Positions 1,112 to 60,800 of a DNA stretch of 64,000 nucleotides are shown here, piece after piece. A model generated the notes under the pieces. That model was not told the origin of the DNA, ran no database searches, and worked only from the letters and a program-made list of their open reading frames with translations. Both the position numbers and the translations under genes were made by a program. Position 1 is the first letter of the stretch. Each line of letters opens with the position of its first letter. The DNA is from Mya arenaria (lineage: Eukaryota; Mollusca; Bivalvia; Myida; Myidae): assembly GCF_026914265.1 (NCBI RefSeq), contig NC_069133.1, positions 10,671,937-10,735,936 of the forward strand. Direction: 5' to 3'.

Positions 1112-1838
1112 CTGTGTACATGAATATATGCATGGTGGTAACTTAGTCGAGTGTATAACACGATATAAGGTTAGATACACGATAGGCTGCTACACTACTT
1201 GTACATGTTCGTGTAGACTACTTTTTGAGTGCTACCTAATCAGATACGTGTTTTTAAATGTACATGTAAAACGTATTCCCTTTTTCTCGAAAGTTCCTTA
1301 GCTTTTTAAGGAGTTTTTAGGAGTTTTTTGACTGAGCAAATAGCCCGTATCATGATTGAACTATATAAAAACTAATTGTTATTATCATGAAGGTAATTAA
1401 TGGAAAATTACCGGAGAAGTACGGATTGTAAGAACGCTAACCGAAGTGGCTGAAATAATGGTATGCTAAATCTCTTGTTTCTTTAAGCAGTATTATATTT
1501 TGGACAGCGTTATTTGGCATTTCCGTTTCTGTATTTGGCTGTACGACTTTGCCTTTAATGTTCAAAAAATAAAATGTAAAAGTGAAACTCGTTCTTAACA
1601 AAAGTGGGGTAATTAACATAAAAACAACATTCATGTGTTGATTTTTTTATGATTATTTTATCGATGTCGGTTGTATATAATAATGCACCGGCATTTTCAG
1701 ACTTAGTACCCTCAATGTACAACTAATTTCAAAGGTCATTCCTAGCGTGACTAAATTATGCTGTCTACAAATAACAGAAAAATGAGCTCAAGGGTTAAAT
1801 ATTGTAGATATGCTATGTGATATGTGCATGAAATGGGC
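1112..1838. other. BBE-A intron, unique part
   Basis: AT-rich sequence between the PCMH exon and the 47-bp array. No exon, RNA gene or repeat was recognised. Copy C has only about 75 bp between the exon at 46212 and its array, so most of this stretch was inserted in A or lost from C. Confidence 0.6.
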
Positions 1839-2556
1839 AACGGTGTTGTACATATAAGGGCATTATAAACCGTTGACCTCTATTCAACGGTGTTGTACAT
1901 ATTAGGGCATTATAAACAGTTGACCTCAATTCAACGGTGTTGTACATATAAGGGCATTATAAACAGTTGACCTCTGTTCAACGGTGTTGTACATATTAGG
2001 GCATTATAAACAGTTGACCTCTGTTCAACGGTGTTGTACATATTAGGGCATTATAAACAGTTGACCTCTGTTCAACGGTGTCGTACATATTAGGGCATTA
2101 TAAACAGTTGACCTCTGTTCAACAGTGTTGTACATATAAGGGCATTATAAACAGTTGACCTCTGTTCAACGGTGATGTACATATAAGGGCATTATAAACA
2201 GTTGACCTCTGTTCAACGGTGTTGTACATATAAGGGCATTATAAACAGTTGACCTCTGTTCAACGGTGTTTTACATATAAGGGCATTATAAACAGTTGAC
2301 AACTGTTCAACGGTGTTGTACATATAAGGGCATTATAAACAGTTGACAACTGTTCGACGGTGTTGTACATATAAGGGTATGATAAACAGTTGACAAATGT
2401 TCAACGGTGTTGTACATATAAAGGCATTATAAACAGTTCAATGGTGTTATTCATATGTACGGACAGTATAACCTGTGTACCTCTGTTTAACGGTGTTGTA
2501 CATATATGAGCATTGTAAACAGTTTACCTCTGTTCAATGGTGTTGTACATATGTGC
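1839..2556. repeat. 47-bp splice-donor minisatellite, copy A
   Basis: About 15 tandem 47-bp units. On the minus strand each unit contains the last 20 nt of the adjacent BBE exon (TACAACACCGTTGAACAGAG), the exon-intron border, and then 27 bp of intron beginning gtcaac. The unit is therefore an amplified exon end plus 5' splice site. The true donor is the rightmost one, next to the rest of the exon. The homologous array is at 46290-47100. Confidence 0.9.
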
Positions 2557-2768
2557 CTGTTTACTGTACTCTGGGTAGCTTGACAACAGCAGGTCCCGTT
2601 CATATCATGGTTGAGGGCGGCCATGTCCATCTGAGAGGGGTAGCATTCATCACTTGGGCAGCATCGCTCCGAGATTATGTTGTGAACGCTACCTTGTTCC
2701 CTGTCATGTCCATCGCTAGTCACACCCAGCCCATCAAGGCAACACTTGCCAGCAAGGCTAGCACTGAA
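2528..2768 (-). pseudogene. BBE-A N-terminal exon, two 1-bp losses
   Basis: Homologous to 47091-47333. It reads EQGSVHNIISERCCPSDECY in frame, then shifts near 2597, so the LLLPS-PEYSKQAHMYN segment of copy C is lost. The donor lies after CAGAG at the left end (gtaaac). The right edge is set by an acceptor-like CTATTGCAG. Confidence 0.75.
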
Positions 2769-3620
2769 CTGCAATAGGAGATACCATATTAACCGCATAC
2801 TTTAAATAAAACAAGAATCGCTCGGTGATGTTGTGCACGATACCATGTTCCCTGTCATGTCCATCGCTAGTCACACCTCAGCCCATCAAGGCAACACTTG
2901 CCAGCAAGGCTAGCACTGAACTGCAATAGGAGATACCATATTAACCGCATACTTTAAATAAAACAAGAATCGCTCTGTGATGTTGTGCACGATACCATGT
3001 TCCCTGTCATGTCTTTCGCCGGTCACACCCCAGCACATCAAGGCAACAGTTGCCAGCAAGGCTAGCGCTGAACGGCAATAGGGGGATACTTAATTGACCG
3101 CATACATAAATATATGAATACATGCATCGCTCAGGGATGGTGTAGTGCACGACACATGTTCCCTGCCTTTTCCTTTTCTCGTCTTGTTCATTGATCGTCA
3201 CACCCCAGCTCTCTAGTGTAACACTTGCCAGCACAAGCGATGAAGTGCAGTAGGAGATACTTCGTTGGTCACAGACTTTAATTCATAAAAATAATCATCG
3301 CGTGGTGATGGAGTAGTGCACGTAACCATGTTCGATGCCTTTCCCACACCCAAGTCAACTAGGGTAACGGGAAAACAACTGGCTATAAAAAGGCTATCGA
3401 GATACAGCACCCGTAAAATTCGAGTTCGTTCGGACATTGAACACTGCCCTTCATGTCTGATGCCTTGTTCACGCCCCGGTTGTGCTCCGGACTACATAGG
3501 CAAAGGGCAACACTGGCTAGCAAAGCTACCAACAAACAGCATATATACATGTAGGATCTGCATTAACAGTGAACACTGCCTTGTCCATGTGTCGGCTACG
3601 CTTTAGCACATCATATGAGA
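2700..3620 (-). repeat. Tandem units of the BBE first-exon region, copy A
   Basis: Segments about 135-140 bp long, related to the start of the BBE N-terminal exon and its upstream flank, repeat at roughly 2705-2845, 2846-2985, 2986-3130 and, more diverged, to about 3620. Shared landmarks on the plus strand are CCCATCAAGGCAACA, TTGCCAGCAAGGCTAGC and TTCCCTGTCATGTC. Minus-strand translations share weak patterns such as LASVTLESWGVTINEQD. Only the leftmost unit joins a continuing exon. Unit C has the same diverged series to 47930. Confidence 0.7.
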
Positions 3621-11841: not shown

Positions 11842-12107
11842 ATGGCGAGGTTTAACACCGACATTGGACGATTTGATTACCCAAACTCAGGTTTAAATCG
11901 GCCTGAAGAACTAGGGTGCTTCTCATTAGATATTAACAGAGAATTTCACGATGATACAAGCCAGAGGAAATATTTTATTAAACCTTCAAATTATGATAAT
12001 GTTAGTTTTGATCTGACAAAAGGATACGAGGGAATGGTGAAAAGAGATGAATTTAAGGACGAACAGATCGACCATCTTCTGAAATGGATAAATAACCATG
12101 AGCTGGG
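11842..12107 (+). CDS. DXO-A exon 1
   Basis: Holds the start codon and the N-terminal block RPEELGCFSLDINREF ... FDLTKGYEGMVKRDE. Donor GTAAGT follows GAGCTGGG. It differs from DXO-C exon 1 at about six residues. Confidence 0.92.
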
Positions 12108-15100
12108 GTAAGTGGTTAAGGTTTCTCAGAAACAGAAACTCATAAAGATATAGGTGAGTGGAACAAAATCAATCTGATCCAAATATACGCTTAATTTTAT
12201 GCAGTGGTTGAATTTGTAACGTGCGAGCCAATGAAACACCAACACCAGATAGCCGAGCTTTCTGGCGTAATGAAACTCACATCAACAGATCCCTTCAGGG
12301 AAAAGCAAAGATTGTTGAAGTTCCAACTTACTATGCCTCACAGGACAGCTGAGCTTTCTAGCAAGTGCATAGAAGTGGAGACTATGAACGCATATCCGCC
12401 GCATACAGCGGACCGTTACATTACTTTCCCCTCCAAGAAGACTCGTCCCGAGTCTTGGTCTGGGACTGATCTTATGGGTAAGGCAACTCCGTTCGGCAGT
12501 TGTTATCATCCCACCGCTGCCACCATTTGTAACGTGGGACGGTAAACAAACAAACACCAGCTAGCCGAGCTTTCTGGCGTAATAAAACACCAACAGATCC
12601 TTTCAGGGAAAAGCATGCTCGACTCTGAAGGGGTCCACTGGTCTTTATATACACTAACTTCTCTATTCTCACATAACCCGGGCTTTGCTAATTTGCATAT
12701 TACCAACAAAGTTTACATCCGGTATGAACGTACTTCCGTTTTATACGGAATATTATTATGAACGCACCTCCGCCGCTGTATACCTCTGCCGCCTTCAGGG
12801 GACCGTTACACTTCAAACATCAGGAAAGCAGAGCTTTAAAGATTGTTGAAGTTCCAACTTACTATGCCTCACAGGACAGCTAAGCTTTCTAGCAAGTGCA
12901 TAGAATTGGAGACTATGAACGCACATCCGCCGCATACAGCGTACCATTACATTACTTTCCCCTCCGAGAAGACTCGTTTCGAGTCTTGGTCTGGGACTGA
13001 TCTTATGGGAAAGGCAACTCCGTTCGGCAGTTGTCATCATCCCACCGCTGCCACCATTTGTAACGTGCGACGGTAAACAAACAAACACCAGATAGCCGAG
13101 CTTTCTGGCGTAATAAAACACCAACAGATCCCTTCAGGGAAAAGCATGCTCGACCCTGAAGGGGTCCACTGGTCTTTATATGCACTAACTTCTCTATTCT
13201 CACATAACCCGGGCTTTGCTAATTTGCATATTACCAACAAAGTTTACATCCGGTATGAACGTACTTCCGTTTTATACGGAATATTAATATGAACGCACCT
13301 CCGCCGCTGTAGACCTCTGCCGCCTTCAGGGGACCGTTACACTTCAACCATCAGGAAAGCAGAGCTTTAAAAATTGTTGAAGTTCCAACTTACTATGCCT
13401 CATAGGACAGCTGAGCTTTCTAGCAAGTGCATAGAATTAGAGACTATGAACGCACATCCGCCGCATACAGCAGACCGTTACAAATTCATTTTTTTAACCA
13501 ATGGGATGACAGTGTATTCAAATATTCCACTTTTAAATTCCATATCGACGTATGAATTGGCGTAGTTATAGGTCGAATTAGTAGTATATTAGGCATTCAC
13601 ATGTGCTTTATATTCGTTTCAGAAATATGCAAACCCACTTCATATGCCGCAGGGGTTTGTTGAATCGTTTAATGCGTACCATGTATGCGAAAAAAGATGA
13701 CTGGAAGTTCGCCGTGTCTCTTCACAAAGGTACCTACTACCTTTGTGAATGCCCCACTGACCAGAGCCTGGCAAAAATAAAACATATGATGGGAGAAAAA
13801 GACGACGAGATGTGTGGATGGGGCTACAAGTTTGAGCAATATCTCACCGCAAGTAGGGCATAGTTTTACCAAGTGTGGTAGTCTTAGGTGGGCAGTCATA
13901 TTCAATATACCTTTATTTCTAAAGTTTAGAGTCGAAAGAGATAACAAAGACAAAGTTAGGAATTTTGATGGTTAAGGTCCAATCTCAGAAATTAATATCC
14001 CTGTGGAAACTCGTTATGCCGAAGTCGCCGGGATCTCGATATAAATTGCGAGCTGTCGAAAGATTTATGCATTCGTAATCGGACTTAATGACAAATCTCA
14101 ATCCGCCTTTTAAGTGGTTGAGCATATTCGTCCGTCGTAAAAGATCAGTGTTCATTACCAAATAGTTGGAATCGGTAAAAAAAATCAATATAAAGATAAT
14201 ATCGAGATATCAGAGCTCGAGATAACGATTTTCACTGTTCATGTAAACATACTAGTAAGTTTCAGCTCGATTTTTCTGTCCTCTTATCTGAGTGTCCCTA
14301 AATAAAATGTATGTTATTTATGCATGAAGCTGGCGTCTTGACATTATTTTAGCACACCAAGTAAATACAATATCATTGTCAATTGGAAGAACATTTATCA
14401 TTATATAAATGCTTGGTTTTCTTAATAGAACATTGGACTGATTTTGATAAAGATCTTGGTCAATCATATTAGCATATTAAAATTATTTTAATGTCATAGA
14501 TTTGTTACTTTGCAACATATTTGTGCGTATTGATTTTTTAGCAAGTATTAAAAATAAACACAACAAGTAGAAAACGAAACAATAACCTGGTAACCACTGT
14601 GACACTTTTTACATAATTTTATTTATTGAAGGTACGGCTTAGATCCTTTAATGAAACGGTCCCCAGACGTTTACGTACCATACACATGTATTCACAAACT
14701 TAATTTATTCGTTTTGCAGGTTCCGCAGATTCCGATCCAACTCCAGACCTGCAATATAACAACTGTGAAACCTTCTATACTGTTGTGAAAGCCACGATCG
14801 GCTCCCACACACTAGGTAATTTTGTACATCTAAGTCTTACACTTCTTTTATTCTTCAAGTTGAGTGTGCCATTTCTAGAAATATTGATCGCACGTGGATG
14901 GGTTTCAGTAGCTGTTAATAAGTGTATATAATTACTTAGGTACGTTATAACTAAATACCAAGTACCCGTATGTTATCCAGGAAGCACTCTCTATATTGAA
15001 CATTGACAATACTATTTCAGTCTGATATTGTGTTTCAGTCTGAGTAATGCACATACTTTTTTTGATATTTTGTGAATTCAGTGCAATACCTGCAATCAGA

Positions 15101-18100
15101 AGTAAAAACAAACAACAACATGAATTTTACATATACGAAATAATTTCTGCTGGACTAAAACATGGATTCCTTGTCTGTTCAAATATTTGTTTTAAAATGA
15201 GTTTTCTTCGTTCCCACGAGCATGCAAAATGTCCAAACCTGTTAAAAAATCTGACTGGGAGAACTTGAAATGGGTGTGAAACCAAAATACTTTTTTATGC
15301 TATAACTTTTTTTTCAATTTCGATATCATAGAGTAAACTATTGATAAAAAAGTGTTTTCAGTTGCATTAGCTAAATATAGAAGGTGGTAGGTAGAATAAT
15401 AGTTTTGGAACAACGGATTTGCCCACATTGCAATGTCCTATCAAACGATTTTCATTTTTTAATTGGATGCAGCCTATATACAAATATTAGATCTAATTAT
15501 ATTCTACGCGTTTATCGTACTCATCCAAATTTATGTATAATCATAGAACCGTTGAATACAGAAATTATTGGTCTGTTAAAGAAAATTTTATTTTCGAGCA
15601 TAAATAGTTTTAATTACTTTCAAAATGCTTTTACGTAATATTTTTTTCTGAAAAAGTGTTTAAACATTCGCTTTTATATTTGTTACTGAAAAGATTTTGA
15701 CTAGTCATAAACTTATATAAACCGCAGAGCAAATGTTTGATAATGAAAAATGATCATGGGCTATCATACTATTAGCGTACTTCACTAATGTGTGGAAATA
15801 AACTTGTTTTCTGTTCATATTAACGGTATGGGTTTAATACTAATTTACATTATAATGGAATGTTTTCTGTTCGAATATAAGCTTCTAATCTGAAAATAGT
15901 GGCATGTTTTTATCAGTGAAATATCTTATTCGTTCCAGTGTATTCGGGTGAGGTCGATGCTGTTAGTACAGATGAACCTTTTGGAGAACATTATGTTGAG
16001 TTCAAAACTATCACACATTCCGCGTTGCAGAGAAACAGTTTCAAAAGGTATTACCTGATTGCCAACTGTTCGAACAGCGATTATAAGTATCTTCCATGGC
16101 CAAGAGTGTAAGATCTCGAACCGAGCGTAGGGTGTTTTGCGGAAACGAGGTTTACCTATCTTAAACGAGCGGCTATGGTAGATGCTTTTGCTCCCACCTC
16201 AGTTAAAAAAAATAAGTAAAAATGTTTTTTTTTTGCTGGAACTCTTTTGTGCTTAGTAAAATAATTGCGTATGGATATGCGATAATTCATGCTTGTCATG
16301 GATATGCGCGCAGTGATTCAGATTATGTTTTAAGTGGAATCGGATTTTAAATAGTTCTAAGAAGAGTAAAGAATTATTTTTTAAAAGGTGCGTGAAAATT
16401 GTTTTATGGTGACATTTGAAGTGAGAAATAATTAATTAGCGTTTTAAATATTGCCACAAGACAAGGTTTCCATGATGCTACAGACGACAGTCTTCAACAA
16501 GGGAGGTAATTACAATGTGGTGACCATTAAAAAGGAGTTCCATACGGGCATTTTATCTTCGCCCATGGGCAAGATAAGAATTTCTAGCATGGTAAAATTA
16601 TTGGATCTACTTATCTGAGGTGGGAGAAATCTGTATCTTATTATCTCAACTACTGAGTGTGTAATGAAAGAGGGAACATTCGAGGGAACAAACTACCCTC
16701 TTTGTCTGACACTTTCAGTCATGGTTTAATTAAAACGTTTCATTGACATAATTGTCAATACCACTAGCAACGGCTTATGCCATTTTCTGATTTCAAGTAT
16801 TGGCCAATCCTCAACTCAGCTATTGCAACTTGTCATGATCATTTGTGTAGCATCTCCGGTAAATCAATTTGATAAGGCAACCATGTGTAAATTAAAATTT
16901 AGCCGTTATTTTCGTAACAAAATAGAAAGTTGGCGATTGTAATCTTTTTTTTATAGATGTTCGGTTTTCAGAACTACTTTAAATGATAATTAGACATATG
17001 TTTGGCTATCCTATTTGCGGAGGCATGAGCATGAACACTAAAATGTTGAAAGAGCCCGAAGGATCTGAAAATTAACAAGTATTCGAACACATACGTTGTA
17101 TCAAATAAGCAGTTTCTAGTTCATTGTTTGTTCATATTCAATTGATATCAATTGAACTTAAGAATATCTCGTAGTCGTTCGTTCTCGAGGTTGGAGAGCA
17201 GAATATCTGACAGACACAATGTACCTTATTTTCGAGCGTATAGTGTTGTGTTTCTCGTTTACTGTGTTAAACATTGACCGAGCCTTTTTAAGTAGTCATT
17301 TGCATTCGCTGAGCTAGTTTCTATCGTAATTTATACTGGTACAAGCTCCTGAAGTGGTGGACACAGAGTATTTTTGTGAGTTAGCCTCTGTAGTTTAAAT
17401 AAAAGCTCGTGAAGTGGTGGTCATAGATTATCAGTGTGTTTTCGCCTCTGTAGTTTCAGTACAAGCCCCTAAAGTGGTGGACACAGATTATTGGTGTTAG
17501 TTCGCCTCTGAAGTTTCATTTCAAGCTCCTAAAGTGGTGGACACAGATTATTAATGTGAGCTCGCCTCTGTAGTTTCAGTTAAAGCTCCTGAAGTGGTGA
17601 ACACAGATAATTGGTGTGAGTTCGCCTCTGTAGTTTCAGTTAAAGCTCTTGAAGTGGTAGACACAGATAATTGGTGTGAGTTCGCCTTTGTAGTTTCAGT
17701 TCAAGCTCCTGAAGTGGTGGACACAGATAATTGGTGTGAGTTCGCCTCTGTAGTTTCAGTTTAAGTTCCTGAAGTGGTGGACACAGATAATTGGTGTGAG
17801 TTCGCCTCTGTAGTTTTAGTTTAAGCTCCTAAACTGGTGGACACAGATTATTAGTGTGAGTTCGCCTCTGTAGTTTCAATTCAAGGGGTGGACACAGATT
17901 ATTGGTGTGAGTTAAACTTTTTTGTTTCAGTGCAAGCTCCTGAAGTTGTGGACACAGTTTATTGGTGTGAGTTCGCCTCTTTAGTTTCAGTAGAAGCTCG
18001 TAAAGTGGTGGACACAGATTATTAGTGTGAGTTCGCCTCTGTTGTTTCAGTTAAAGCTCCTGAAGTCGTGGACACAGATAATTGGTGTGAGTTCGCCTTT

Positions 18101-21100
18101 TTTTGTTTCAGTTCAAGCTCCTGATGTAGAAGACACAGATTATTGGTGTGAGTTCGCCTCTTTTGTTTCAGTTCAAGCTCCTGAAGTTGTAGACACAGTT
18201 TATTGGTGTGAGTTTGCCTCTTTTGTTTTAGTTCAAGCTCTTGAAGTGGTGGACACAGATTATTAGTGTGAGTTTGCCTCTATAGTTTCAGTTAAAGCTT
18301 TTGAAGTGGTGGACACAGAATATTAGTGTTAGTTCGTCTCTTTTGTTTCAGTTCAACCTCCTGAAGTTGTGGACACAGTTTATTGGTGTGAGTTCGCCTC
18401 TTTAGTTTCAGTTCAAGCTACTGAAGGTGTGGACACAGTTTATTGGTGTGAGTTCGCCTCTTTAGTTTCAGTTCAAGCTCCTAAAGTGGTGGACACAGAT
18501 TATAAGTGTGAGTTCGCCTCTGTTGTTTCAATTATAATATTTACAGGTACACGCACCTGAAGTGGTGGACAAAGTGTATTTTTGTGAGTCCGTCTCTGTA
18601 GTTTTCATTGTATTATTTTCAGGTACAAACTCTGAAATTGGTGGACACAGAGTGTTCTTGTTGGTGTTCCCGAGATTGTTTGTGGGCTCCGTGATGATGC
18701 TGGTATTGTTACCAAGCTACAAACATACACCACTCAAGATTTACCAACAATGGCCAGTGTAAGGCATATTTTGTATATTTTTATTAAGTATAATTTATTA
18801 AATAAATGTATTTAAATATCTATTTAACAAATGTTAATTGGAATGACTCACGAAATGTGAATGATTCTCGTTCGCCTTTATTTAAAAAATCGTGCTATAT
18901 AAAAACAATTGTGAAACTAGCTATGGCAACATATATTAATCACTCTCGTTGGCACGATGTTTGAAATGATATTTTACACTTTGATAAATTCGAGTTATTT
19001 TACTTATGCAAAAGCAACTTACTCACTTAAAAAAGAAGTTCTAAATCAAAGTGTTAACATTATTCTCTTTTCAAAAACGTTAATAACCCTTTAGGGGATA
19101 GAGAATTATTATCACATTTCTAAATACATAATAAAAAAAGCTGTAATTTAAATGGTATGAAATTGAAACATGATTTTTGTTCGAAATTCACACACAAACG
19201 TTTTTGCCCAAAAGACCCTAAATCGCACTCCTACTTGTAAAACAACTGTGTAAAAGCACGTCAGTTACCGGCATTTTGGTAAATGATTCATGTTCTTATA
19301 ATTCTCAATCTTACACAATCTTACAGAGACTAAGTCTGGTTGACCTTTATTTTGAGTCGAATATTCAAATATTCTATCAAACGTTTGGTATTCGAATGTC
19401 AAAATCGATATTCGAATATTCGAAAAAAAAGTTAAATAAAGAGAATAAAAAAAACTTTTACCTACAACACTGTTGTTGTTTATAAAGTTTGTTTGTCTTG
19501 TTTTTTAAAACGATTGGCCCCTTATGCCAGAGGTGTGAATGTGATAACAATACACAAAACACGCGTCATACTACTTTTACAATAACTGGCTAGAATTCGG
19601 GTTTAACACCAATGTGTTATCATGGCTGCAAATTAAGCTGTGCAACATAGCTCAAATCGCCGTGATGATATGAATGCCATGTGCTACATATATGTTGTTA
19701 CAGATATGTGCTTTAAACAGTCTTCCATGTTTCGACACAATGTCCGTGCTTTGAAATGTAAATGAATAGTATAGCGTTTTAGGATATATTTCCTCTATTG
19801 TTGTACAAAACATGAGTCAAATCCGCATATATTTTCGTTTTATTATTTTACTAGTACCCGAGTTGGTTTGGGTTTTCCATTGTAATACTCAATTTAGAGG
19901 CCAATCTCAGAACGAGGCTGATCATCCTACGGAAAACGCTTTTGACTGAGAATCCATCTAAATTCACATTGTTTACAAATATAATGGCAGCGGAATTGAA
20001 ATTATTATATTTTGTTGTTTGTTTGTTTATAATGTATTGTGTTTTTTTTCTTTCTGAATATGTATAATTTTAAAGGCTTAGTTAGGGTATTCAGGATCCT
20101 CTTCGCGTACTGGCTACGACAAAGTAGTGTAAACATTTCCCGGCTATTACTTAAGCGAATAATAATAGTAGTTTACTACATCTTCTAAAATATGTATTTC
20201 GGTAATCAAATATTCGAATATCAATTTTGCCATTCGTTTACATCCCTAATTTTGACCATCCAAGCCATGTCATATGCCCGTTGACATGGATGTTATTAGG
20301 CTTTTAACTTTGTGTCCCTTAAATTTTTGACAACTAGGAGTGTCCATGTGGTTTCATCCATCCCATACTGAATGTACTTTGACATGGAGGTTGTTAGGTA
20401 TGGGACTGAATCAAACTGAAATAAATGAACAGAAAATTTTCAAAATCCTCAACTGCCAATGGTAAACACAAAAATCACCGAATCATTCTGACATGTACTG
20501 TCTGTAGATAACCAACTTTGAACTCTATCATATACAATAAGGACAAAGTGATCAAAGCGAAGCAATTTATGACATCTTGTAAGTTTAGTTGTTAGCGATA
20601 AAGCGTAGAAATTATCAATAGGCGATTTTATTAGCTGGGAATGTATGTTATAAACATAACTGTATTTCAGGACATTCCTGCTCCATGGAAGCCATATGTT
20701 TGCTTCAACTTCCTTGACAAGCTCCTTGACTTCATCAAATCTAATGTGACGATAGATGATCCAAGGTTTGTTAATTAAAATAATTTGTATTAAAGGTATT
20801 TGTTTCACATTGAAACTGAACAACTTGATTATAGTATGCCTATTTTAATTAAGCAAAGACACGGAGTTTAATCGAAAATGTAACATTCTTTTGAAACTGT
20901 CAACAACCAAAGGGATAAAGGTTTAAACTAGATTTCTCAAGATTAAATCAAATCAGATATCCATCAAAATGAATTGTTAAAAAATACTTGTATTTCTTGT
21001 ATTGTAAACCAGGCTCGTTCACCTGCTTGAGTTTTCAGGCAGGGATGCGACTTGTAACCGGCTTCCAAGGGACTCCGAATACGCTTTCCTGCATAAATGG

Positions 21101-21115
21101 TATACTCACAATTAG
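11842..21115 (+). CDS. DXO/RAI1-family decapping exoribonuclease, copy A
   Basis: Seven exons: 11842-12107, 13623-13852, 14720-14815, 15939-16047, 18623-18758, 20671-20765 and 21013-21115. All have GT-AG borders and compatible phases, giving 1035 nt (344 codons plus stop), close to but shorter than human DXO (396 aa). DXO enzymes remove non-canonical or incomplete 5' caps, including NAD caps, and degrade the RNA 5'-3' with a two-metal centre. Visible family motifs are ELGCFSLD, FDLTKGYEG, GYKFEQY (exon 2), SGEVDAV and YVEFKT (exon 4), and KWWTQS (exon 5); the Glu, Glu-x-Asp, Glu and Gln used for catalysis in the family are all present. The end DDPRLVHL...YAFLHKWY matches the family C-terminus. 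One lesion is seen: TGA at 18633-18635 near the start of exon 5, where the repeat consensus reads CTCCTGAAG (LLK). It is either a recent pseudogene or a sequence error in repeat-rich DNA. ATG context is TCAAAATGG. Confidence 0.9.
12215..13482. mobile_element. 531-bp tandem repeat element in DXO-A intron 1
   Basis: About 2.4 copies of a 531-bp unit; GTTGAAGTTCCAACTTACTA recurs at about 12315, 12846 and 13377. The outer ends are TGTAACG and CGTTACA, with AATT on both sides (12211-12214 and 13483-13486) as a likely 4-bp target duplication. DXO-C intron 1 is an empty site. TG...CA ends and a TATA-like motif (CTTTATATA) would fit LTR-type remnants in tandem; a non-autonomous DNA element is the alternative. 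No protein-coding part is present. It is younger than the A/C duplication. Confidence 0.6.
13623..13852 (+). CDS. DXO-A exon 2
   Basis: 230 nt encoding FICRRGLLNRLM, then KFAVSLHKGTYYLCEC and MCGWGYKFEQYLTA. GYKFE is the family motif whose Glu binds metal in characterised DXO proteins. The acceptor is TTTCAG and the donor GTAGGG. Confidence 0.92.
14720..14815 (+). CDS. DXO-A exon 3
   Basis: 96 nt, SSADSDPTPDLQYNNC ... ATIGSHTL. The acceptor is TTTTGCAG and the donor GTAATT. It corresponds to the RLGSHPLL region of human DXO just before the GEVD motif. Confidence 0.9.
15384..15645 (+). mobile_element. LINE 3' fragment in DXO-A intron 3
   Basis: Reads RICPHCNVLSNDFHFLIGCS, the C-x2-C...H...C tail typical of CR1/Jockey-group LINE ORF2 proteins, followed by about 55 more codons. 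Unit C holds a longer piece of the same element at 60780-61560, so the insertion predates the duplication and A lost its reverse-transcriptase part. Confidence 0.75.
15939..16047 (+). CDS. DXO-A exon 4 (catalytic)
   Basis: 109 nt, VYSGEVDAVSTDEPFGEHYV then EFKTITHSALQRNSFKR. It contains the E-x-D pair and the E-F-K motif of the active site. The acceptor is TTCCAG and the donor GTATTA. Confidence 0.92.
16080..16650. mobile_element. Dispersed repeat (about 570 bp), copy 1, in DXO-A intron 4
   Basis: Aligned with 36952-37445 over most of its length; shared blocks include ATGCGCGCAGTGATTCAGAT and ACAGACGACAGTCTTCAACA. Internal inverted segments (CTCCCACCTCAG / CTGAGGTGGGAG) suggest a DNA-type element. 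DXO-C intron 4 lacks it. No ORF. Confidence 0.7.
16651..17334. other. DXO-A intron 4, shared part
   Basis: No feature beyond alignment with 62050-63087 of unit C (for example CCCTCTTTGTCTGACACTTT). Confidence 0.6.
17335..18622 (+). repeat. 60-bp splice-acceptor minisatellite, DXO-A intron 4
   Basis: About 21 tandem units. The 60-bp unit comprises a pyrimidine/TTTCAG tract, then the first codons of DXO exon 5 (AAGCTCCTGAAGTGGTGGAC, coding KLLKWW), then a donor-like GTGAGT. The two units nearest exon 5 are longer (about 78 bp) and retain TTTACAG|GTAC, the true exon border. The array is thus an amplified intron-exon junction. The 60-bp period keeps reading frame, and most units carry TAG in the DXO frame. 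Homologue: 63088-64000. Confidence 0.92.
18623..18758 (+). CDS. DXO-A exon 5, with in-frame TGA
   Basis: 136 nt after TATTTTCAG: YKL*NWWTQSVLVGVPEIVC and onward to LPTMAS, followed by donor GTAAGG. The expected LLKWWTQS is broken by TGA at 18633-18635 and an adjacent K-to-N change. The affected codons are exactly those shared with the 60-bp array upstream. Confidence 0.85.
18759..20670. other. DXO-A intron 5
   Basis: 1.9 kb, no exon recognised. Segments with ATTCGAATATTCGAA at about 19360-19430 and an inverted relative ending TCGTTTACATCCCTAA at about 20250 resemble ends of hAT-type elements, but I could not define the boundaries. Confidence 0.45.
20671..20765 (+). CDS. DXO-A exon 6
   Basis: 95 nt, DIPAPWKPYVCFNFLDKLLD then FIKSNVTIDDPR. 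It matches WNPSVCMNF ... VVQDDPR of human DXO. The acceptor is TATTTCAG and the donor is GTTTGT. Confidence 0.9.
21013..21115 (+). CDS. DXO-A exon 7 (terminal)
   Basis: 103 nt after AAACCAG: LVHLLEFSGRDATCNRLPRD then SEYAFLHKWYTHN and TAG at 21113-21115. An AATAAA hexamer lies at about 21229, in a plausible place for polyadenylation. Confidence 0.88.
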
Positions 21116-27772: not shown

Positions 27773-28383
27773 CATTCTTTAGGATGTAGTTTTTGATATT
27801 CATTTTACAGGTTTGAAATCAGACTAAAAAACCCTTGGGAATGAAACCAAAATGACACGGGGACATCAGGCTTCCTTAAAATGAGCTAGTACCGGCGTAT
27901 GATTTACACCTGAGCATTGCTAAAACAACGTTTTCTTTCGCAGATGGTATCGTCCTTGAGAATTTTAAATCTTATGAAACTGTTTTTCTTTCTATAACAA
28001 AATTGTGACCGAGAACTTGACGCGTGACTATTGTAATGCATTATATTACTAAATTGAGTTACAACCGCTCTGTACTTAGCCCGCGAAGAATATACTGACG
28101 ATAAAGGGACCACGACAATAGTGTGATATGTATACGAGCGATATCAAGACTAACATTCAGTATTTAACAGATTATATTTTTTGTGCTCTGTAAAGATTGC
28201 GTATGTATCAATATATACCTTACGATGATTGTTCCTGTCAAAAAAATGATACGATCAACGTAATCGGAATGAATACAATGTAAATAAAACATTGGACTAT
28301 AAAAGTGCCAATCAATATTTGTATAAAAAGCTATTTTCAAGAGACTCAATAAATCGTACATTAACCAATCATTCAGTAAGAAC
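27773..28383. other. Upstream of DXO-B
   Basis: No gene recognised. There is little similarity to the upstream regions of DXO-A and DXO-C, so the third copy has a different 5' flank. Confidence 0.45.
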
Positions 28384-28648
28384 ATGGCGAGGCTTAACAC
28401 CAACATAAGACGATTGGTTGGCCCAAACTCAGTTTTATACACCTTGGAGAGATTGGGTGCTTCTCTTTAGATATTAACAGAGAATTTCAAGATGATGCCC
28501 GCCAGAGGAAATATTTTATCAAACCATCAAATTATAACAATGTTAGATTTGATCTGACAAAAGGCTACAGGGGAATGGTGAAAAGAGATGAATATAAGAA
28601 CGAACAGATAGACCACATTCTGAAATGGATACGAAAACATGAGCAGGG
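28384..28648 (+). pseudogene. DXO-B exon 1
   Basis: Begins MARLNTNIRRL, then is frameshifted; downstream the correct frame resumes as NREFQDDARQRKYFIKPSNY. 265 nt against 266 in copies A and C. Possible GC-type donor. Confidence 0.8.
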
Positions 28649-28902
28649 GCGAGTGGATAAGGCTTTTCAGAAACAGAAACTCATAAAGATATAGATGAGT
28701 GGAACATGATCAATTTGATTTTTGAAGAACAATGCATGGAGATATATTACTAACTTCTCGCAGAGCGTAGGCGAACTCACTTGAGATAATGAGAATATTT
28801 ATATCTAGATGTTTGGCGGTAAGGTTGAAGTCGTTGAGTAGATGTATTTTCGCATTTCTTGATTTTTGTTATTTATTTGTATGCGATTTGAATAAATTAC
28901 AG

Positions 28903-29132
28903 AATTACCCAAATCGACTTCATACGCGATAGGAGTTTGTTAAAAAGGTTACTGTCTACGCTGTATACGAGAAAAGAAGACTGAAAGTTCGCAGTGACTC
29001 TTCATAACGGCACATACTTCCTGTGGAACTACCACACCGACCAGAAACTGGCACTTAAACAACAAATAATGGCAGGGAAGGACGAAGAGATGTGGGCGTG
29101 GGGCTTCAAGTTCGAGCAGTATCACACAGGAA
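28903..29132 (+). pseudogene. DXO-B exon 2
   Basis: 230 nt, same length as the other copies; IDFIRDRSLLKRLL ... KED*KFAVTLHNGTYFL ... WGFKFEQYHTG. One nonsense change only. Confidence 0.82.
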
Positions 29133-29506
29133 GTAGGGCATAGTTCGACCAATTGTGTAGAAGTCTTAGACAAAGTCTAGCACTCAAATTTATTATATCC
29201 CATCAAGTAAAAACAACATTATAAGCAATTGGAGGAACATTGTTTTTTTGCATATAAATGGCTGGTTCTCTGAAAACATGTTCCACAAAATATATTATAT
29301 TTCACAACATTTTTGTGTGAATTGATTTTAAACAGTATTCGAAATGAGTACAGAATGTAGAAAGCAAACAATACGAGTGTTGCCATTTGTGAAACTTATA
29401 CAATTTAATGTTATTGAAGTAACGACTAGAATCCTTTAACAAAACGGCCCCTGATGTTTACGTACAATACACATGTATTCACATACTTGATTTATACGTA
29501 ATGCAG

Positions 29507-29602
29507 GTTCCAAAGATTCCGTTCCAAATCCATACCTGCAATATAACAACTGTGAAGCCTTCTATACTATTGTGAAATCCCAGGTCGGTGCCCACACACT
29601 AG
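29507..29602 (+). pseudogene. DXO-B exon 3
   Basis: 96 nt open exon, SKDSVPNPYLQYNNCEAF then YTIVKSQVGAHTL, with acceptor ATGCAG and donor GTAATT intact. Confidence 0.82.
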
Positions 29603-29899
29603 GTAATTTTATATATTTTGACCGTACGATAATTGTATTCCGTAAACATATTTCTGTACGTCAAACATGCAATTAGTAGAATTATAAATCGTACTTGGTT
29701 GAGTTCAGTAACGATTACTGTGCATTGGAATATAAAATGTGTTCAACTTAAAAGTCACGTAAGATCATACACAAACATATTAAGGGAATAGGTCTAATGT
29801 TATTTAGATTATCATGGGCTGTTCCCTATTCGAATATACGCTTTTTTAATCTGAAATAAATTTTGGCTATTTGTCGATGAATCCACTATATCTTTTCAG

Positions 29900-30014
29900 T
29901 ATACTGTGGCGAGGTCGATGCTGTACATGTAAATTCATATGGGTCTATGGGGGGACATTTTGCTGAGTTCAAAACCACCTCACATTCCTCATTGCAGAGA
30001 GGCAGTTTTAAAAG
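29900..30014 (+). pseudogene. DXO-B exon 4
   Basis: 115 nt (two extra codons relative to A and C): VYCGEVDAVHVNSYGSMGGH then FAEFKTTSHSSLQRGSFKR. Active-site residues are kept. The donor is GTGCGA. Confidence 0.82.
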
Positions 30015-30029
30015 GTGCGACAGAAACGG

Positions 30030-46289: not shown

Positions 46290-47100
46290 TTCTGTTTAAC
46301 GGTGTTGTACATATAAGGGCATTATAAACAGTTGACAACTGTTCAACGGTGCTGTACATATAAGGGCATTATAAACAGTTGACCTCTGTTCAACGGTGTT
46401 GTACATATACGGGCATTATAAACAGTTGACCTCTGTTCAACGGTGTTGTACATATAAGGGCATTATAACCAGTTGCCCTCTGTTCAACGGTGTTGTACAT
46501 ATAAGGGAATTATAAACAATTGCCCTCTGTTCAACGTTGTTGTACATAATAGGGCATTATAAACAGTTGACCTCTGTTCAACGTTGTTGTACATATAAGG
46601 GCATTCTAAACAGTTGACAACTGTTCAACGGTGATGTACATATAAGGCCATTATAAACAGTTGACCTCTGTTCAACGGTGTTGTACATATAAGGGCATTA
46701 TAAACAGTTGACCTCTGTTCAACGGTGTTGTACATATAAGGGCATTATAACCAGTTGCCCTCTGTTCAACGGTGTTGTGCATATAAGGGAATTATAAACA
46801 ATTGCCCTCTGTTCAACGGTGTTGTACATAATAGGGCATTATAAACAGTTGACCTCTGTTCAACGTTGTTGTACATAATAGGGCATTATAAACAGTTGAC
46901 AACTGTTCAACGGTGTTGTACATATAAGGGCATTATAAACAGTTGACCTCTGTTCAACGTTGTTGTACATAATAGGGCATTATAAACAGTTGACCTCTGT
47001 TCAACGGTGTTTTACATATTAGGGCATTATAAACAGTTGACCTCTATTCAACGGTGTTGTATATATATATGAGCATTATAAACACTGTACCTCTGTTCAA
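46290..47100. repeat. 47-bp splice-donor minisatellite, copy C
   Basis: About 17 units matching 1839-2556, each with the exon end and donor (minus strand CAGAG|gtcaac). Runs of units with shared variants (for example ATAATAGGG) show higher-order duplication inside the array. Confidence 0.9.
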
Positions 47101-47333
47101 CGGTGTTGTACATATGTGCCTGTTTACTGTACTCTGGGTAGCTTGGCAACAGCAGGTGCCCGTTCATGCCATGGTTGAGGGCGGCCATGTCCATCTGAGA
47201 GGGGTAGCATTCATCACTCGGACAGCACCGCTCCGAGATTATGTTGTGAACGCGTCCTTGTTCTCTGTCATGTCCATTGCCAGTCACACCCCAGCCCATC
47301 AAGGCAACACTTGCCAGCAAGGCTAGCGCTGAA
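47091..47333 (-). CDS. BBE-C N-terminal exon
   Basis: 243 nt, open. After an acceptor-like CTATTACAG it reads SSALALLASVALMGWGVTGN, then ERCCPSDECYPSQMDMAALN and HLLLPSYPEYSKQAHMYNTV; the donor is CAGAG|GTACAG. The split codon joins to YPNLIAVV of the next exon, giving VEQRYPNLIAVV. There is no in-frame ATG within the exon before the hydrophobic segment, so the start lies further upstream or at the inner Met. Confidence 0.8.
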
Positions 47334-47930
47334 CTGTAATAGGAGAGACTTTATTGACCAAAATACTTAAATATATGAATACACGCATCGCTCGATGATG
47401 ATGTAGTGCACGACACATGTCCCCTGCCGTTTCCTTTTCTCGTCTTGTTCATTGATCGTCACACTCCAGCTCACTAGGGTAACACGTGCCAGCACAAGCG
47501 ATGAAATGTAATAGGAGAGTCTTCGTTGGTCACAGACTGTAATTTATAAGAATCATCATCGCGTGGTAATGGCGAAGTGCATGCAACCATGTTCGATGGC
47601 TTTCCCACACCCCAGTCTAATAGAATTACGGGAAAACTGGCTATAAAAATGCTATTAAGATACAGCACCAGTAAAAACAGCTCGCTCGGACATTGAACAT
47701 TGCCCACCATGTCTGATGCCTTGTTCACCCCCGGTTGTGCCCCGGACAACCTGGGTAAAGGGCAACACTGGCTAGCAAGGCTACCCATACACGGCATATA
47801 TACATGAAGGATCTGCATTACCAGGAAGTCTAGTAAGTATCGCCCCAACAGTGAACACTGTCTTGCCCATGTATGGCTACACTTTAGCACACCATATGAA
47901 ATGATCAAAGGTTTGCCCATTAAAGGCGCT
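47334..47930 (-). repeat. Diverged first-exon tandem units, copy C
   Basis: Counterpart of 2770-3620. Repeated landmarks are the acceptor-like AATAGGAGA segments and CATGTTCGATGGC / CATGTCTGATGCC. Unit A has at least one more recent unit here than unit C. Confidence 0.65.
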
Positions 47931-52950: not shown

Positions 52951-53109
52951 CCAACAATTCGATTTGCGTTATAAATATTGCATCGCCATGTGAAAGACAA
53001 ATTGTTGATAACTATAAATCCTTTGAACGATTACGTGCTATATAAAACTATAAGGAGTATTTTGGCTTTTTAACAAATGGGGGCTTTGTGGCTACGTAGC
53101 TGTTTTTGA

Positions 53110-54534: not shown

Positions 54535-54800
54535 ATGGCGAGGTTTAACACTGAAATTAGACGATTTGATTACCCAAACTCAGGTTTAAACCAGCCTGAA
54601 GAACTTGGGTGCTTCTCATTAGATATTAACAGAGAATTTCACGATGATAACAGCCAAAGGAAATATTTCATTAAACCTTCAAATTATGATGATGTTAGAT
54701 TTGATCTGACAAAAGGATACGAGGGAATGGTGAAAAGAGATGAATTTAAGGACGAACAGATCGACCATCTTCTGAAATGGATAAATAATCATGAGCTGGG
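54535..54800 (+). CDS. DXO-C exon 1
   Basis: Start codon in TTTCAAAATGGCG context; ends GAGCTGGG|GTGAGT. Open, with six residue differences from DXO-A. Confidence 0.93.
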
Positions 54801-57800
54801 GTGAGTGGTTAAGGTTTTTCAGAAACAGAAACTAATAAAGATATAGGTGAGTGGAACATGATCACACTGATCTCAAGTATACACTTGATTATACAATGGT
54901 TGAAATCCTTTTTGAACCAAAGTAATGGCAGTTTGAAATATTCCACGTTTTACATTCCATATCGAAGTATAAAATTGCGTAGTAATATGTTGAATTAGAA
55001 GTTTATTGGGCATTCACATTTGCTAAGTTTTATATTCGTTTCAGAAATATGCAAACCGACTTTATATGCCGCAGGGGTTTGTTAAATCGTTTAATGCGTA
55101 CCCCGTATGCGAAAGAAGATGATTGGAAGTTCGCCGTGACCCTCCACAAAGGTACCTACTACCTTTGTGAATGTCCCACTGACCAGAGTCTGGCAACAAT
55201 AAAACAAATGATGGGAAAAAAGGACGAAGAGATGTGTGGATGGGGCTGCAAGTTTGAGCAGTATCTCACCGCAAGTAGGTCATAGTTTCACCAATAGTTT
55301 GGCCGTTTTAGATGGGCATATCATATTAGATCATATTATTTATAGAGGGTTTAAATTTGTTTATTTCAATGTAGGATCTTAATTTATTTCACAAGTGTCA
55401 TAGAAAGCGAAGCCACGAGTAAAAATATAGTTTTTCTATGATCACGAGTGAAATTCAAATACGATCTTACACTGAAATAAACAAATGTTCTGTTTCTTTT
55501 ATGCTCATTAACCGAGTTTTTTTTAATGAAAAGGGTGTTATTTAGGCCGCTACCCGTGGGGCGCCCCTCACACAAAATTATAGCTGTCAACATTTCTATT
55601 TCCGGTTTGTTGAGAATAAGTTCTATTTATTCTTATAGTTTATTATTTGCTCGTTAAATAAGTGAAAAGCTTTTATGAACAGTTATCAATGAAGTTTTAT
55701 TGGTATATGTATATATATATATATTCCCCCCAAAATAACGAAATTACTTTTATTTAAGAGGTTCATGAATACATAACTAAATTACTACTCCGCCATTTTA
55801 TGAATGAAAATTTGGAAGGTCAAATATGTTCGCAAAACAAATGCGGATATCATTGGATTTTAAATATTTTTCTTAGTTTTAGACTGTTTTTCATTATACA
55901 TGAATATTCCGTCATTTTTCTGTCAGGGACCAGTCTGTTTCGTTTGAAAACAGGTCTGTTTTCCAGGTTAAGAGTGAATGCCACGCTAGTTAGTTGACAA
56001 ATTTTGAGGCGTGGGTATATCAGATTATTTGTAAATTGTTGTGTGAATTTCCGGGAAGCTCGTTTTATGTATTACAACGACAAACAGTTTAAAATACATT
56101 TGAACGATGATATAAAATTATATTTATGTTCACACATGTTTTGTTTTGTTTGTAATTTGTTTGGTATAAAATTTTCTGGTTCAAAGTGAAGTGTTATGTT
56201 TTGATCAAGGGAAAGTAACGACAAAGGATTTTAAAAGTAGTTCAGAAAGTTAATAATTCCACTCCTTATTTTGCAGTGAAAATATCAAATTTATATTTTC
56301 TCTGTTGTTATTTCACTAATAAAAACCCATATTTCATCGAAAAGCATGAAAGAAATACTCTTTATTTTCTAAAGTTTTAAGTTATTGCGAAGTCGTTGGG
56401 ATCTAGAGATAAATTGCGATGCCGCGAAAAGCCTATGTTTTCGTAATCGGACTTATGACAAATCTCAATCCATCCTTTAAGCGGTCTGGGAATATTTGTC
56501 CGTCGTAAAAGAGCAGTGTCCATTATCAAATAATCGGAATCGGTAAACGATCAACATAAAAATATATTGAGATATAAGAGTTCGACATAACGAATTCCAT
56601 TGTACATGTAAACATAATCAGAAGTTTTAGCTCGATTTTTCTTTCCTCTTATCTGAATGTCCGTAACAACATTAATGTTAAACTTGCGTTAGTCTGGCAT
56701 CTTGACATTGTAGCACACCAAATAAATTAAATATCATTAGCAATTGGAAAAACAATTATCTTCATATAAATGATTGGTTTTCTAAATAGAACATGGGGCT
56801 TGTTTTGATAGCAATCTAATTCGTGAATTTAAATGATCTAAGTGTCATAGTTTAGCTCTTTTGGTAAATATTTGTGCGTATTGATTTTTTAGCAAGTATT
56901 AAAAATGATGACAAGTAGGATACACAACAATCAAGGTTTACCAATTGATGACACTTAATATTATTGAAGTAACGGCTTAGATACTGAAAAGAGCCCTCGA
57001 CGTTTACGTACCATACACATGTATTCACATACTTACTTTATACGTTTTACAGGTTCCGCAGATTCCGATCCAACTCCAGACCTGCAATATAACAACTGTG
57101 AAAACTTTTATACAGTTGTGAAAGCCACGATCGGCTCCCACACACTAGGTAATTTTGAACATTTAAATCTTACACGGCTTTCATTCGTGTTGAGTGTGCC
57201 ATTTCTTGAAATATTGAGCGTATTTGGATGGGTTAAGAAGCTGTTAATAAGTGTATATATTTATTTAGGTACGTTATAACTAAATACCAAGTACCCGTAT
57301 TTTATCCTGGAAGCACACTCTATATGGAACATTGAAAATACTGTTTCAGTCTGATATTTTGTTTCAGTCTATGTAATGCACATACTTATTTTGTTGTTTT
57401 GTGAATTCAGTTCAATGCCTGCAATCAGAAGTAAAAAAAACAACAACAACAATAACACGAATTTTCAGAGATTAAATATGTTTTGCTGGACTCGAACATG
57501 GATACTGTGTCCCTGCCAATTTCTGTTTTAAAATGAGTCGTCTGTGTTCCCACGAGTACGCAAAATCACCAAACCGGATCAATAATTATCTGAGACGGAG
57601 ACCTTGAAATATATATAAAACTCAAAGAGCTGCACCATTTAATGCTGGAGATGACATGTGAGTTTGGTTCAGTTGAACTACCCCAAACGATGGCGTTTGT
57701 GGCAAGACCCCTTAACATTACAGATGCTCAGGAGTTTAGATGACAGACAGTGAACATGGAAAATGAGTTTAAGCTAGATTGGGGTGAACTTGTGTATATC

Positions 57801-60800
57801 GGACTCATCGAAATAGTTTTTTAATAAAATGAAGGGACGCGTTTACTTCTAGTTACGTTATAAAGCTAAATACGAAGTACTCTTATGAATGGTCCAGAAT
57901 TCACTCGTTTTATTGAAGATTGAAAATGCTACTTCAGACTGATAATTTGTCTAAGTAATGCACATAGTTTATAGTTGTTATTCAGTAAATTCAGTTTAAT
58001 ATCTACAATTGCAAAGAAAATAAATCATGAGTATCTAAGTGATTAGGAGAAACTCGACATATGTATTAAATGTATATCTAAGTTTATAATATGAATAAAT
58101 CGATTTCGAACAAAAAAAAATACATACTGCAAGTAAGCATTATAAAGTTACTATGAATACGTATGTCGCAAAACACAAGCACACAGCAGAATACCAACTT
58201 CGAAAACTCCATTCCTAAAGATTACTGGTACCACTTGAACAAGGTTAGCAACGTATCTAAACATAAGTCACCCCCTACAGACACATTTTATCATTATTTC
58301 AAAATATCAATGACGTCGTTGACGCGAATGATCATATATCAGATAATAACCACCCTGGCTTCTATAGCGCCGAAACCGATATGTTAAATAGGCCAATAGA
58401 ACATGACGAAGTTCGCAAAATGATACTGAAAAGTAAGAATGGTAAAACATCGTCGCAGTTTGATAATACACTGGTATTCTCCTTGATGTATGGCCAATAG
58501 GGACAATAAAGCCAATATTTAAAAGCAAGGGTTCCCCTAGCGACCCCCAAAATTATAGACCGATTACAATTCTTAGTTGTTTAGGCAAATTATTCGCGTC
58601 TATCCTTAATGAACGTATCGACACATTCCTCTATGATAATAACTTATTAAACGAGAACCAAGCCGGATTTCGCGCAAATTATTCAACCTGCGATCATATT
58701 CTTATATTGCATTTCACTAATAAGTAAACTAAGGGCCCAGAAAAAGAAACTGTTTTGCTCATTTATTGATTTTTCGACCGCATTTGACCCTGTCCGGCGA
58801 GCTGGTTTGTGGCATAAGCTAACGGGCATACAGGGTAAAATTCTCACAGTCATAAAAACATGTACAATGATATAAAATCATGCGTTTACATCAATGGGCA
58901 TCTGTCTCCTATGTTCCTAAGTTTTTGTGGAGTTCGTCAGTGAGAAAACCTTTCCCCGATTTTATTTTCTATTTACCTAAACGATTTAGACGAATTCCTT
59001 GAACGAACATGTTCTAGTGTTTCTATAGAAGTAGATGCAAATGAGACAATTATGTACCTTCAGTTACTTATTCTCTTGTATGCTGATGACACTGTACTCT
59101 TTGCAGACAAAAAACGTGTTTTTCAAAAAAGTCTTAACTGTTTCCAAGACTACTGTTTGCAATGGAAACCAAATATTAACCTCTCAAAGACTAAAATAAT
59201 TGTCTTTGGTGCCAGAAATCTGAAGAAATTTAACTTTAGCATTGCTAACCAAGCGCTAAAGATAGTTAAGGAATACAAAAATCTTGGTGTATATTTCTCG
59301 TCCACCGGTAGCTTTTTATACTGCCGTAAATATTTATTAAGCCAGGCTAACAAAGCCATGTATGCTCTATTTCTTAGAATTAATAACCTAGACTTGCCTT
59401 TGGACATACAACTGAAGCTTTTTGATTCCACCATTGTCCCGATTCTAACGTACGGATGTGAAGTATGGGGTTTTGAAAACCTCGATCTGTTGGAGCAACT
59501 TCACTGTAATTATTTTTCGGCGGATTACATATAGAAAGAATACTCCACGTTACATGCTCTACTCGGAACTTGGTAGATACCCCCTTAACATCATAATTAA
59601 AACCAGAATGATAAGTTTCTGGAGTTAACTCGTTTCATCCCATGACTCAAAAATAGGTTTCTAGATATATAAAGACATTTTACAAAGTAATAATTCAGTC
59701 TGGGCCAGTTACATCAAGTCAATACTTGATTCACCGGGCTATTCATACATTTGGCTTACAAGAGTACCTGTAAAACATGTCAGTAAACGTGTTTTGAACG
59801 ATTTAATCTTTCGTCTAAGGGTTAAATGTATTCTACGTTTAAATCCGATATTAAATTTGTGGATTACCTTAATATCTTACCAAATCTCTACGTTTCTGCT
59901 TGCACTTCCGCACTAGCAATCATAAATTCCCTATCGAAGTCGGTAGATGGAATGCTGTACCACTTGTCAGTAGAAAGTGTACGTTTTGTAATCTAAACGA
60001 TATCGGTGACGAACTGCACCATTTACTTACATGTCCATTTTTTAATCCTACCAGAAGAAAATGCATACATAGTCGTTTTTACTCAAGACCTAAAGTCTTA
60101 TATTTTAGTGAGGTTTTAAATTGTAAGAACCCGGATACCTTAAGGAAAACAGCATTTTTTGTTAAAATCTTAGTAAATCACTTTAAATGAATCTGGTCAT
60201 GTATTTGATAGTTTTTCATTTGTTATCTCATAACTATACCGATTATATTGTATCCTTATTCAAATAAATGTTTTGTCATAAAAATAATATTATTTAAACT
60301 AACCACATTCCCCTTACTAATTATATTTGTTTTGTATAATGATAAACTCCAAACCTGTTGTGAAGTCGCCATTAATCCACCTCTTTATACCTGTGTTAAC
60401 ATATATATATATTGCGTTTTCACAAGCTTTAACTTAAATGTAAACCGTGATATCAAGAATAAAAAAGATTATTGAGATGAGTTGAGTTGGGTTGTAATCA
60501 GTTGGTTTGGTTTTTAACTGGTTTTTAAGGAAATGTAAGGTTATCAAATACATGAAACGCAGGGAATGGCATTTTATTCATCTGAAAATGTTGCCTGTTT
60601 ACATATAAATGTAGAGGAAAATGAATAATTAGTATATAACTTGTTTTTATAATTTCATGTATTATCATACATAAACACATGCCATAGGTGTCATGAGTTA
60701 AGTCATTTAGGTGTACATCAAGACGAATGTCCATCGCTGTTATTATTGTCTATGTACAATTACGATTAAGAGGAAGTATTATATCTCTAATGAGCCAAAG

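Follow-up and report, generated by a model that had tools for sequence, protein, structure and literature searches.

The DNA analyzed here is a window of 64,000 nucleotides from the bivalve Mya arenaria (NCBI RefSeq assembly GCF_026914265.1, contig NC_069133.1, positions 10,671,937 to 10,735,936 of the forward strand), which contains a duplicated block, with copies offset by approximately 43-46 kb. Each copy of the block pairs a minus-strand gene for a BBE-type FAD oxidase with a plus-strand DXO gene (FAD-1/DXO-A and FAD-2/DXO-C), and a broken third gene, DXO-B, lies between them. The principal subject is a minisatellite in intron 4 of DXO-A, which adjoins exon 5 directly at position 18623 and has a counterpart in DXO-C, and which was probably born from the junction between intron 4 and exon 5.

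An earlier note on this DNA had described a 60-bp minisatellite before exon 5 of DXO-A, and the array was recovered both by Tandem Repeats Finder (TRF) and by an anchor scan. For the array in DXO-A (array A), TRF reported a 60-bp period at 17342-18530, with 20.0 copies, 85% matches, and a score of 1578, and for the array in DXO-C (array C), 10.9 copies at 63093-63742. The anchor scan placed 22 unit starts at 17200-18700, of which one is exon 5 itself and the other 21 are array units, and a further 14 at 63000-64000. Under stricter criteria, 33 matches were obtained on the plus strand, all within the two arrays, and none on the minus strand of the window, and an exact 21-base pattern had no match in viral_contigs. 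Array A is formed by 19 units of 55-61 bp (16 of exactly 60 bp) followed by two of 76 bp, and array C by ten units of 55-60 bp, then units of 76, 73, and 89 bp, and one cut by the end of the window, which makes its count a lower bound (at least 14 units). The roughly 20 pairs of splice sites that the note had placed in both genes are thus present as units in DXO-A, but only 14 are seen in DXO-C before the window ends, with its exon 5 out of view.

The two arrays occupy equivalent positions in DXO-A and DXO-C, and their flank is also homologous. The mean identity of the units, calculated from 31 of the 36 aligned rows (units A21 and C12-C14 and exon 5 omitted), is 0.849 within array A, 0.804 within array C, and 0.818 between them. 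In the unit tree, A01, C01, A21, C12-C14, and exon 5 form a single group with a support of 0.935 (0.08-0.89 inside it), and the boundary units are less homogenized than the inner ones.

The units combine the end of intron 4 with approximately 38 nt from the start of exon 5. Both halves are homologous to the respective sides of the junction, which supports the origin proposed in the note. When the exonic half was compared with exon 5, against a null of 500 dinucleotide shuffles, unit A1 scored 53 (best shuffle 34), C1 scored 51 (33), and C14 scored 48 (31), with a narrow margin in A21 (37 against 35), C12 (33 against 32), and C13 (34 against 30). For the intronic half, the 25 bases leading up to the first unit agree with the ends of the long units at 17-19 of 25 positions in array A and 16-18 of 25 in array C. 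As 2000 random placements gave no more than 15 of 25, four of the five anchored comparisons lie above the null, and the fifth, which was mis-anchored by one base, gave 8 and 7. The sequence before the first unit is a diverged end of intron 4, reading ACTG/GTAC (the slash marks the border) where the true border is CAG/GTAC. It is scarcely credible that an unrelated minisatellite landed beside exon 5 by chance. The units have diverged, and some of the comparisons with the flank and the exon are weak, as such an accident would allow, but the edge units match exon 5 far above the shuffles (53 versus 34), the last units repeat the true border, and two further types of array in the window copy the borders of a neighboring exon.

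The long units (73-89 bp) are found at the 3' ends of the arrays, where they carry the border TTTACAG/GTAC, or TTTTCAG/GTAC before exon 5 itself; the border before unit C13 has no AG (ACCG). As the note had observed, the units nearest to the exon in DXO-A are longer and keep the true border, AG/GTAC. Exon-like sequence is kept at both edges of the array, however, and not only at the exon-side edge, which the note had suggested as the point of origin. The short units (19 in array A and ten in array C) lack approximately 16 bp, including the AG/GTAC border, and a few lack more. Units A3 and C7 read CAG/TACAAG, the commonest other form is CAG/TTCAAG, and TTA, TTT, TGC, and others also occur after the AG, which is one base out of register with the true border. 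The long units therefore span the border directly, and the short units only by descent.

Table 1. Features of the genes and junction-derived arrays in the window, with positions counted from its first base.
Feature	Positions	Strand	Basis or remark
Junction-derived minisatellite A, 21 units	17340..18622	+	TRF, anchor scan
Unit A21, open 37-nt pseudo-exon RYTHLKWWTKCIF	18547..18583	+	acceptor TTTACAG/GTAC, donor TTT/GTGAGT
Junction-derived minisatellite C, 14 units before window end	63091..63998	+	TRF, anchor scan
Unit C14, open 37-nt pseudo-exon RYKLLKWWTQRAF	63921..63957	+	acceptor TTTACAG/GTAC, donor TTT/GTAAGT
DXO-A exon 1, coding	11842..12107	+	open reading frame and donor GGG/GTAAGT
DXO-A exon 2	13623..13852	+	
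DXO-A exon 3	14720..14815	+	
DXO-A exon 4, end AAA AG/ (phase 2)	15939..16047	+	
DXO-A exon 5, source of array unit	18623..18758	+	in-frame TGA 18633-18635 (YKL*NWWTQ)
DXO-A exon 6, end approximate	20671..20765	+	tblastn, E 1.9e-6
DXO-A last exon, up to TAG	21013..21115	+	tblastn, E 7.5e-4; ends by inspection
DXO-B, broken third copy	28327..30019	+	frame broken in exon 1, stop codon in exon 2
DXO-C exons 1-4, open	54535..61969	+	exon 5 not seen in window
FAD-1 exon, donor side, 47-bp array, 15 copies, last partial	1838..2527	-	
FAD-1 exon	2528..2768	-	read as lacking two single bases present in FAD-2
FAD-1 exon, acceptor side, three upstream copies	2769..3256	-	spacing 152, 152, 172 bp
FAD-2 exon, donor side, 47-bp array, 17 copies after true donor, last partial	46291..47090	-	
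FAD-2 (BBE-type oxidase) exon, source of two arrays	47091..47333	-	
FAD-2 exon, acceptor side, one upstream copy	47334..47517	-	172 bp away

The host genes belong to the RAI1 family, given that the joined translations of exons 1-5 of DXO-A match Pfam RAI1 (PF08652, E 2e-74) and DXO chains in the PDB (best E 3.6e-45). Exon 6 and the last exon were located with a vertebrate DXO C-terminus as the tblastn query. Over 717 bases of exons 1-4, which include a few intron bases at the edges, DXO-A and DXO-C are 92.7% identical, with a synonymous divergence (dS) of 0.20 and a non-synonymous divergence (dN) of 0.048; the ratio of 0.24 indicates constraint on the DXO protein since the duplication, in one lineage or both. 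Exon 5 of DXO-A, which is otherwise conserved, is interrupted by the TGA, reading YKL*NWWTQSVLVGVPEIVCGL where mammalian DXO has HKLLKWWAQSFLPGVP (HKLLKWWAQS). Either the full-length protein has been lost, or the stop is a variant of one haplotype, or it is avoided by splicing. Gene conversion of exon 5 by the array is unsupported as the source of the stop, since no unit carries the variant found in the exon. DXO-B matched neither exon 5 nor the array unit, and was rejected as an array-free comparator, being broken and lacking an exon 5 match. A reverse transcriptase domain (RVT_1, E 2.7e-12) lies at 58944-59531, within intron 3 of DXO-C.

The splicing potential of the units was assessed with approximate weight matrices and an assumed U1 5' end, on which all the scores and energies given here rest. 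The note had assigned a 3' splice site to every unit, but an AG is present at the acceptor position in only 18 of the 21 units of array A and ten of the 14 of array C, and in the short units this AG does not mark the true border. A GTGAGT donor was also claimed for each unit; GTNAG is indeed found in 20 of 21 units in array A and 11 of 14 in array C, though not in all, and exon 5 has none at that place. A typical short unit would form a pseudo-exon of 36 nt, which, with its AG one base out of register, usually reads TCC TGA or TCC TAA after exon 4 (AAA AG). The scoring of individual units that the note had suggested gave decoys of native strength, but 22 of the 26 units with both AG and GTNAG bring a stop in the frame of exon 4. 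The open units are A10, C5, A21, and C14, and only A21 and C14 keep both the true border and the frame. C5 (36 nt, acceptor 5.9, donor 6.3) would keep the frame, but would add unrelated residues. When all the acceptor-donor pairs 20-300 nt apart were counted above modest score limits, one of 92 was open in array A (A21) and five of 49 in array C (two in C5 and three around C13-C14).

In array A and its edge, 19 of 123 AGs, the true acceptor included, reach the 90th percentile of the other AGs in the window, as do 11 of 78 in array C, and 17 of 163 GTs in array A and ten of 112 in array C reach the 95th percentile of the other GTs. The true acceptor of exon 5 scores 8.4, and the decoys score up to 10.2. 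The pairing energy with U1 is -6.5 kcal/mol for most of the listed donors of array A, and ranges from -4.7 to -6.5 kcal/mol for the true DXO donors other than that of exon 1. Overall, the array is predicted to contain many decoys as strong as native sites, and the use of most of them would be harmful to the message.

Junction copies also occur in the neighboring FAD oxidase gene, the other exons of which match FAD/BBE oxidases and Pfam BBE, where they were recognized by reading the exon. The consensus of the 47-bp unit begins with 25 bases from the end of the exon, without a mismatch among the 25, and continues into the start of the intron; it scores 50 against the exon, in comparison with 29 for the best of 500 shuffles. 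The true donors are GAG/GTACAG and GAG/GTAAAC. Among the 32 donor copies (the FAD-1 count includes one inside a 94-base row), 24 read GTC, seven have no GT (two being the partial last copies), and one reads GTA; where a GT is kept, the scores reach no more than 3.3 (FAD-2) and 4.5 (FAD-1), against 4.7 and 6.9 for the true donors. On the acceptor side, the AG has been lost in three of the four copies, and the fourth equals its true acceptor (6.7). In 35 of the 36 copies, then, the copied signal is either lost or weaker than the true site. The array of FAD-2 also presents a higher-order pattern of six units. A TAG was read in the next exon of FAD-2, and this, together with the two deletions in the exon of FAD-1, suggests that parts of the gene cluster have decayed.

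The note had proposed that the DXO array could act as a sink for splice sites. In such a scheme, U1 and the machinery of the 3' splice site would bind the decoys, or units of approximately 36 nt would be included as poison exons, and the stops would lower the output of DXO. Decoy scores within the range of the DXO gene's own sites, a GTGAGT that is both kept and dense, and the stops in most of the two-site units are compatible with this, and an intronic 38-bp variable number tandem repeat (VNTR) in TERT is reported to alter splicing, though through a G-quadruplex rather than through copies of splice sites (PMC11830802). A functional sink nevertheless appears improbable, given that the pseudo-exons are only 30-37 nt long, the number of units varies (21 versus at least 14), exon 5 of DXO-A itself contains a stop, and the copied sites of the FAD gene have been weakened or lost rather than kept. 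Comparable arrays in amphioxus, known as mirages, are reported to be harmless, without disturbing splicing (PMC3087553, PMC3902484). No result here shows a splice-site sink.

The preferred reading, with a probability of approximately 0.8, is that the DXO array is a minisatellite born from a splice junction, of the mirage kind, which would be tolerated by the splicing machinery. Several observations weigh against it. The gapped local test of the intronic half separated only three of ten comparisons between flank and unit tail from shuffles, with 0, 6, and 7 of 500 shuffles reaching the score; in the other seven, which failed, 28 to 273 of 500 did so, and the homology of this half is judged here by the anchored comparisons. 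The unit acceptors (3.6-10.2) overlap the range of seven true DXO acceptors (4.2-11.6), and the unit donors (1.4-7.9, with 18 of 31 at 6.2-6.3) that of nine true donors (3.1-10.4); with decoys as strong as the gene's own sites, some splicing into the array is possible. The GTGAGT has not been eroded, since it shares second place for conservation among 55 six-base stretches in 31 aligned units, and the 2197 bp of the arrays contain 28 occurrences of GTRAGT, against 25 in the remaining 61803 bp of the strand. Variation is also higher at the third positions of the old frame (permutation p 0.047, or 0.076 without the first codon), a weak excess that neutrality does not predict, and which counts weakly against the reading. 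A coding role for the units was rejected, as this excess is too slight.

A different outcome is suggested by the two units that keep border and frame. In A21 or C14, the copy might be a real micro-exon, joined to an acceptor inside exon 5, with part of the array serving as a new intron. Both units have an acceptor of the true type, an open 37 nt in phase with exon 4, and a GTGAGT or GTAAGT donor, and the joining of A21 to the AG at 18650, 18674, or 18716 would open the frame of DXO-A past the TGA. There is a precedent in a potato gene, in which a cryptic GTAAG is reported to lie in a copied exon (PMC4974935), and the authors of the amphioxus globin study proposed mirages as a source of introns in the same way (PMC3087553). 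These inner acceptors are poor, however (0.6, 1.8, and 1.4; 56th, 68th, and 64th percentile), an intron of 67, 91, or 133 nt would result, with donors scoring 4.1, and nothing here supports the use of either unit, which leaves this rescue of the exon decidedly improbable. An AG at 18652 would keep the frame directly from exon 4, but lies at the 8th percentile.

If the array was indeed born from the junction and tolerated, a segment of approximately 76 bp, roughly half from the end of intron 4 and half from the start of exon 5, would have been duplicated in tandem upstream of the exon, as read from the sequence. The short form is most simply accounted for by one loss of approximately 16 bp, which would have fused TTTCA to the first G of the exon and created a new AG; the CAG/TACAAG retained in A3 and C7 is the sequence expected from such a fusion. 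As this form is the majority of both arrays, it is probably older than the duplication that separated DXO-A from DXO-C, after which the numbers of units would have diverged. The array may have spread by slippage or unequal exchange, with selection filtering the copies that spread, since efficiently spliced copies would damage the mRNA. Tolerance, in turn, could be due to the intronic location of the copies, the small size of the exons (only some 36 nt), and the competition of a good true acceptor. Regulatory roles for the DXO array appear less likely than tolerance, and the junction arrays of both DXO and FAD are most likely tolerated rather than useful.

It is possible that the copies which spread are those with a defused signal, a pattern that appears to hold in the FAD gene (with the exception of the one intact acceptor copy), through loss of the acceptor AG and change of the donor +3 position, and only partly in DXO, through loss of the border and a shift of the frame. 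A broader proposal, which is speculative and unlikely, is that minisatellites in this genome arise at splice junctions, from which copies would spread only once the signal is defused, and that an occasional copy escapes to become a micro-exon, with array units as its intron. The best candidate would be C14, with its true-type acceptor, open 37-nt YKLLKWWTQRAF, and GTAAGT. If this were true, junction repeats would be a source from which introns could be gained at any time.

The consensus units of 15 arrays were searched against the masked window at E 0.05, and ten had no match (both 38-bp, 47-bp, and 60-bp arrays, the 68-bp array, the 69-bp array at 41441, the 21-bp array, and a small 33-bp array), although these nulls are weak, given that the search missed the 60-bp and 47-bp junction cases. 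The matches of the two larger 33-bp arrays were to repeats flanking the first array of the pair, just outside its edge. The 42-bp array matched its counterpart and its edges; for the array at 24874 the match was to its own edge, and for the 152-bp array to its paralogue. The 42-bp array (45606-45954) is the only copy listed by TRF, the other copy (approximately 628-853) being reduced to a few diverged units; it adjoins the donor side of FAD exon 2, and was rejected as a junction copy because its unit has no clear exon bases. The 68-bp array (25380-27189) and the 69-bp array (41441-43536) are similar and in opposite orientation. Their units, which have box-like motifs, may resemble tRNA bodies, but neither ARAGORN nor Rfam (gathering scores) returned anything in the window. 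Large, diverged 33-bp arrays are found in both copies of the block (5664-8652 and 49516-52957).

Both paralogues carry each of the three types of junction array that occur in these 64 kb, which makes the region a good site for the study of how such repeats start, why dozens of copied sites should be tolerated by splicing, and whether the repeats feed intron gain. Minisatellites born from junctions are known, but have rarely been described. Among the matches listed from the part of the literature covered, arrays of border copies were found in amphioxus only. An abalone intron contains a 27-bp minisatellite, which is not described as a border copy in the available text (PMC6905558). The VNTR6-1 of TERT intron 6 is likewise an intronic minisatellite linked to splicing, but acts through a G-quadruplex, and its unit is not described as a copy of a splice junction in the part of the report available (PMC11830802). 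In the potato RdRp gene, an intron is reported to have been gained by tandem duplication of an intron-exon border, with the support of RNA reads (PMC4974935). As in unit C14, an intron end and exon start were copied there with a cryptic GTAAG donor, but the DXO array has many copies, whose use in splicing is only hypothetical.

The closest parallel is provided by the amphioxus mirages, tandem copies of intron/exon borders that were named in Adh3 and later found in globin genes (BflGb6/BflGb9) and PGBD5 (PMC3087553, PMC3902484). In the available text of these papers, as in the clam window, the copies resemble minisatellites of the acceptor or donor side, AG and GT are present in many but not all units, the repeats undergo tandem turnover, and the boundary units escape homogenization; PGBD5 even includes a 60-bp case. 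Unlike the 2-7 units described there for the globin and PGBD5 mirages, DXO-A has 21, with a shorter, derived unit in which the true border has been lost and the AG shifted, a source exon that carries a stop, and three border arrays in one 64-kb window, each in two gene copies. What may be new, then, is the occurrence of three borders in one window with arrays in both paralogous blocks, the short form that lacks the border, and the defused state of the copies that spread.

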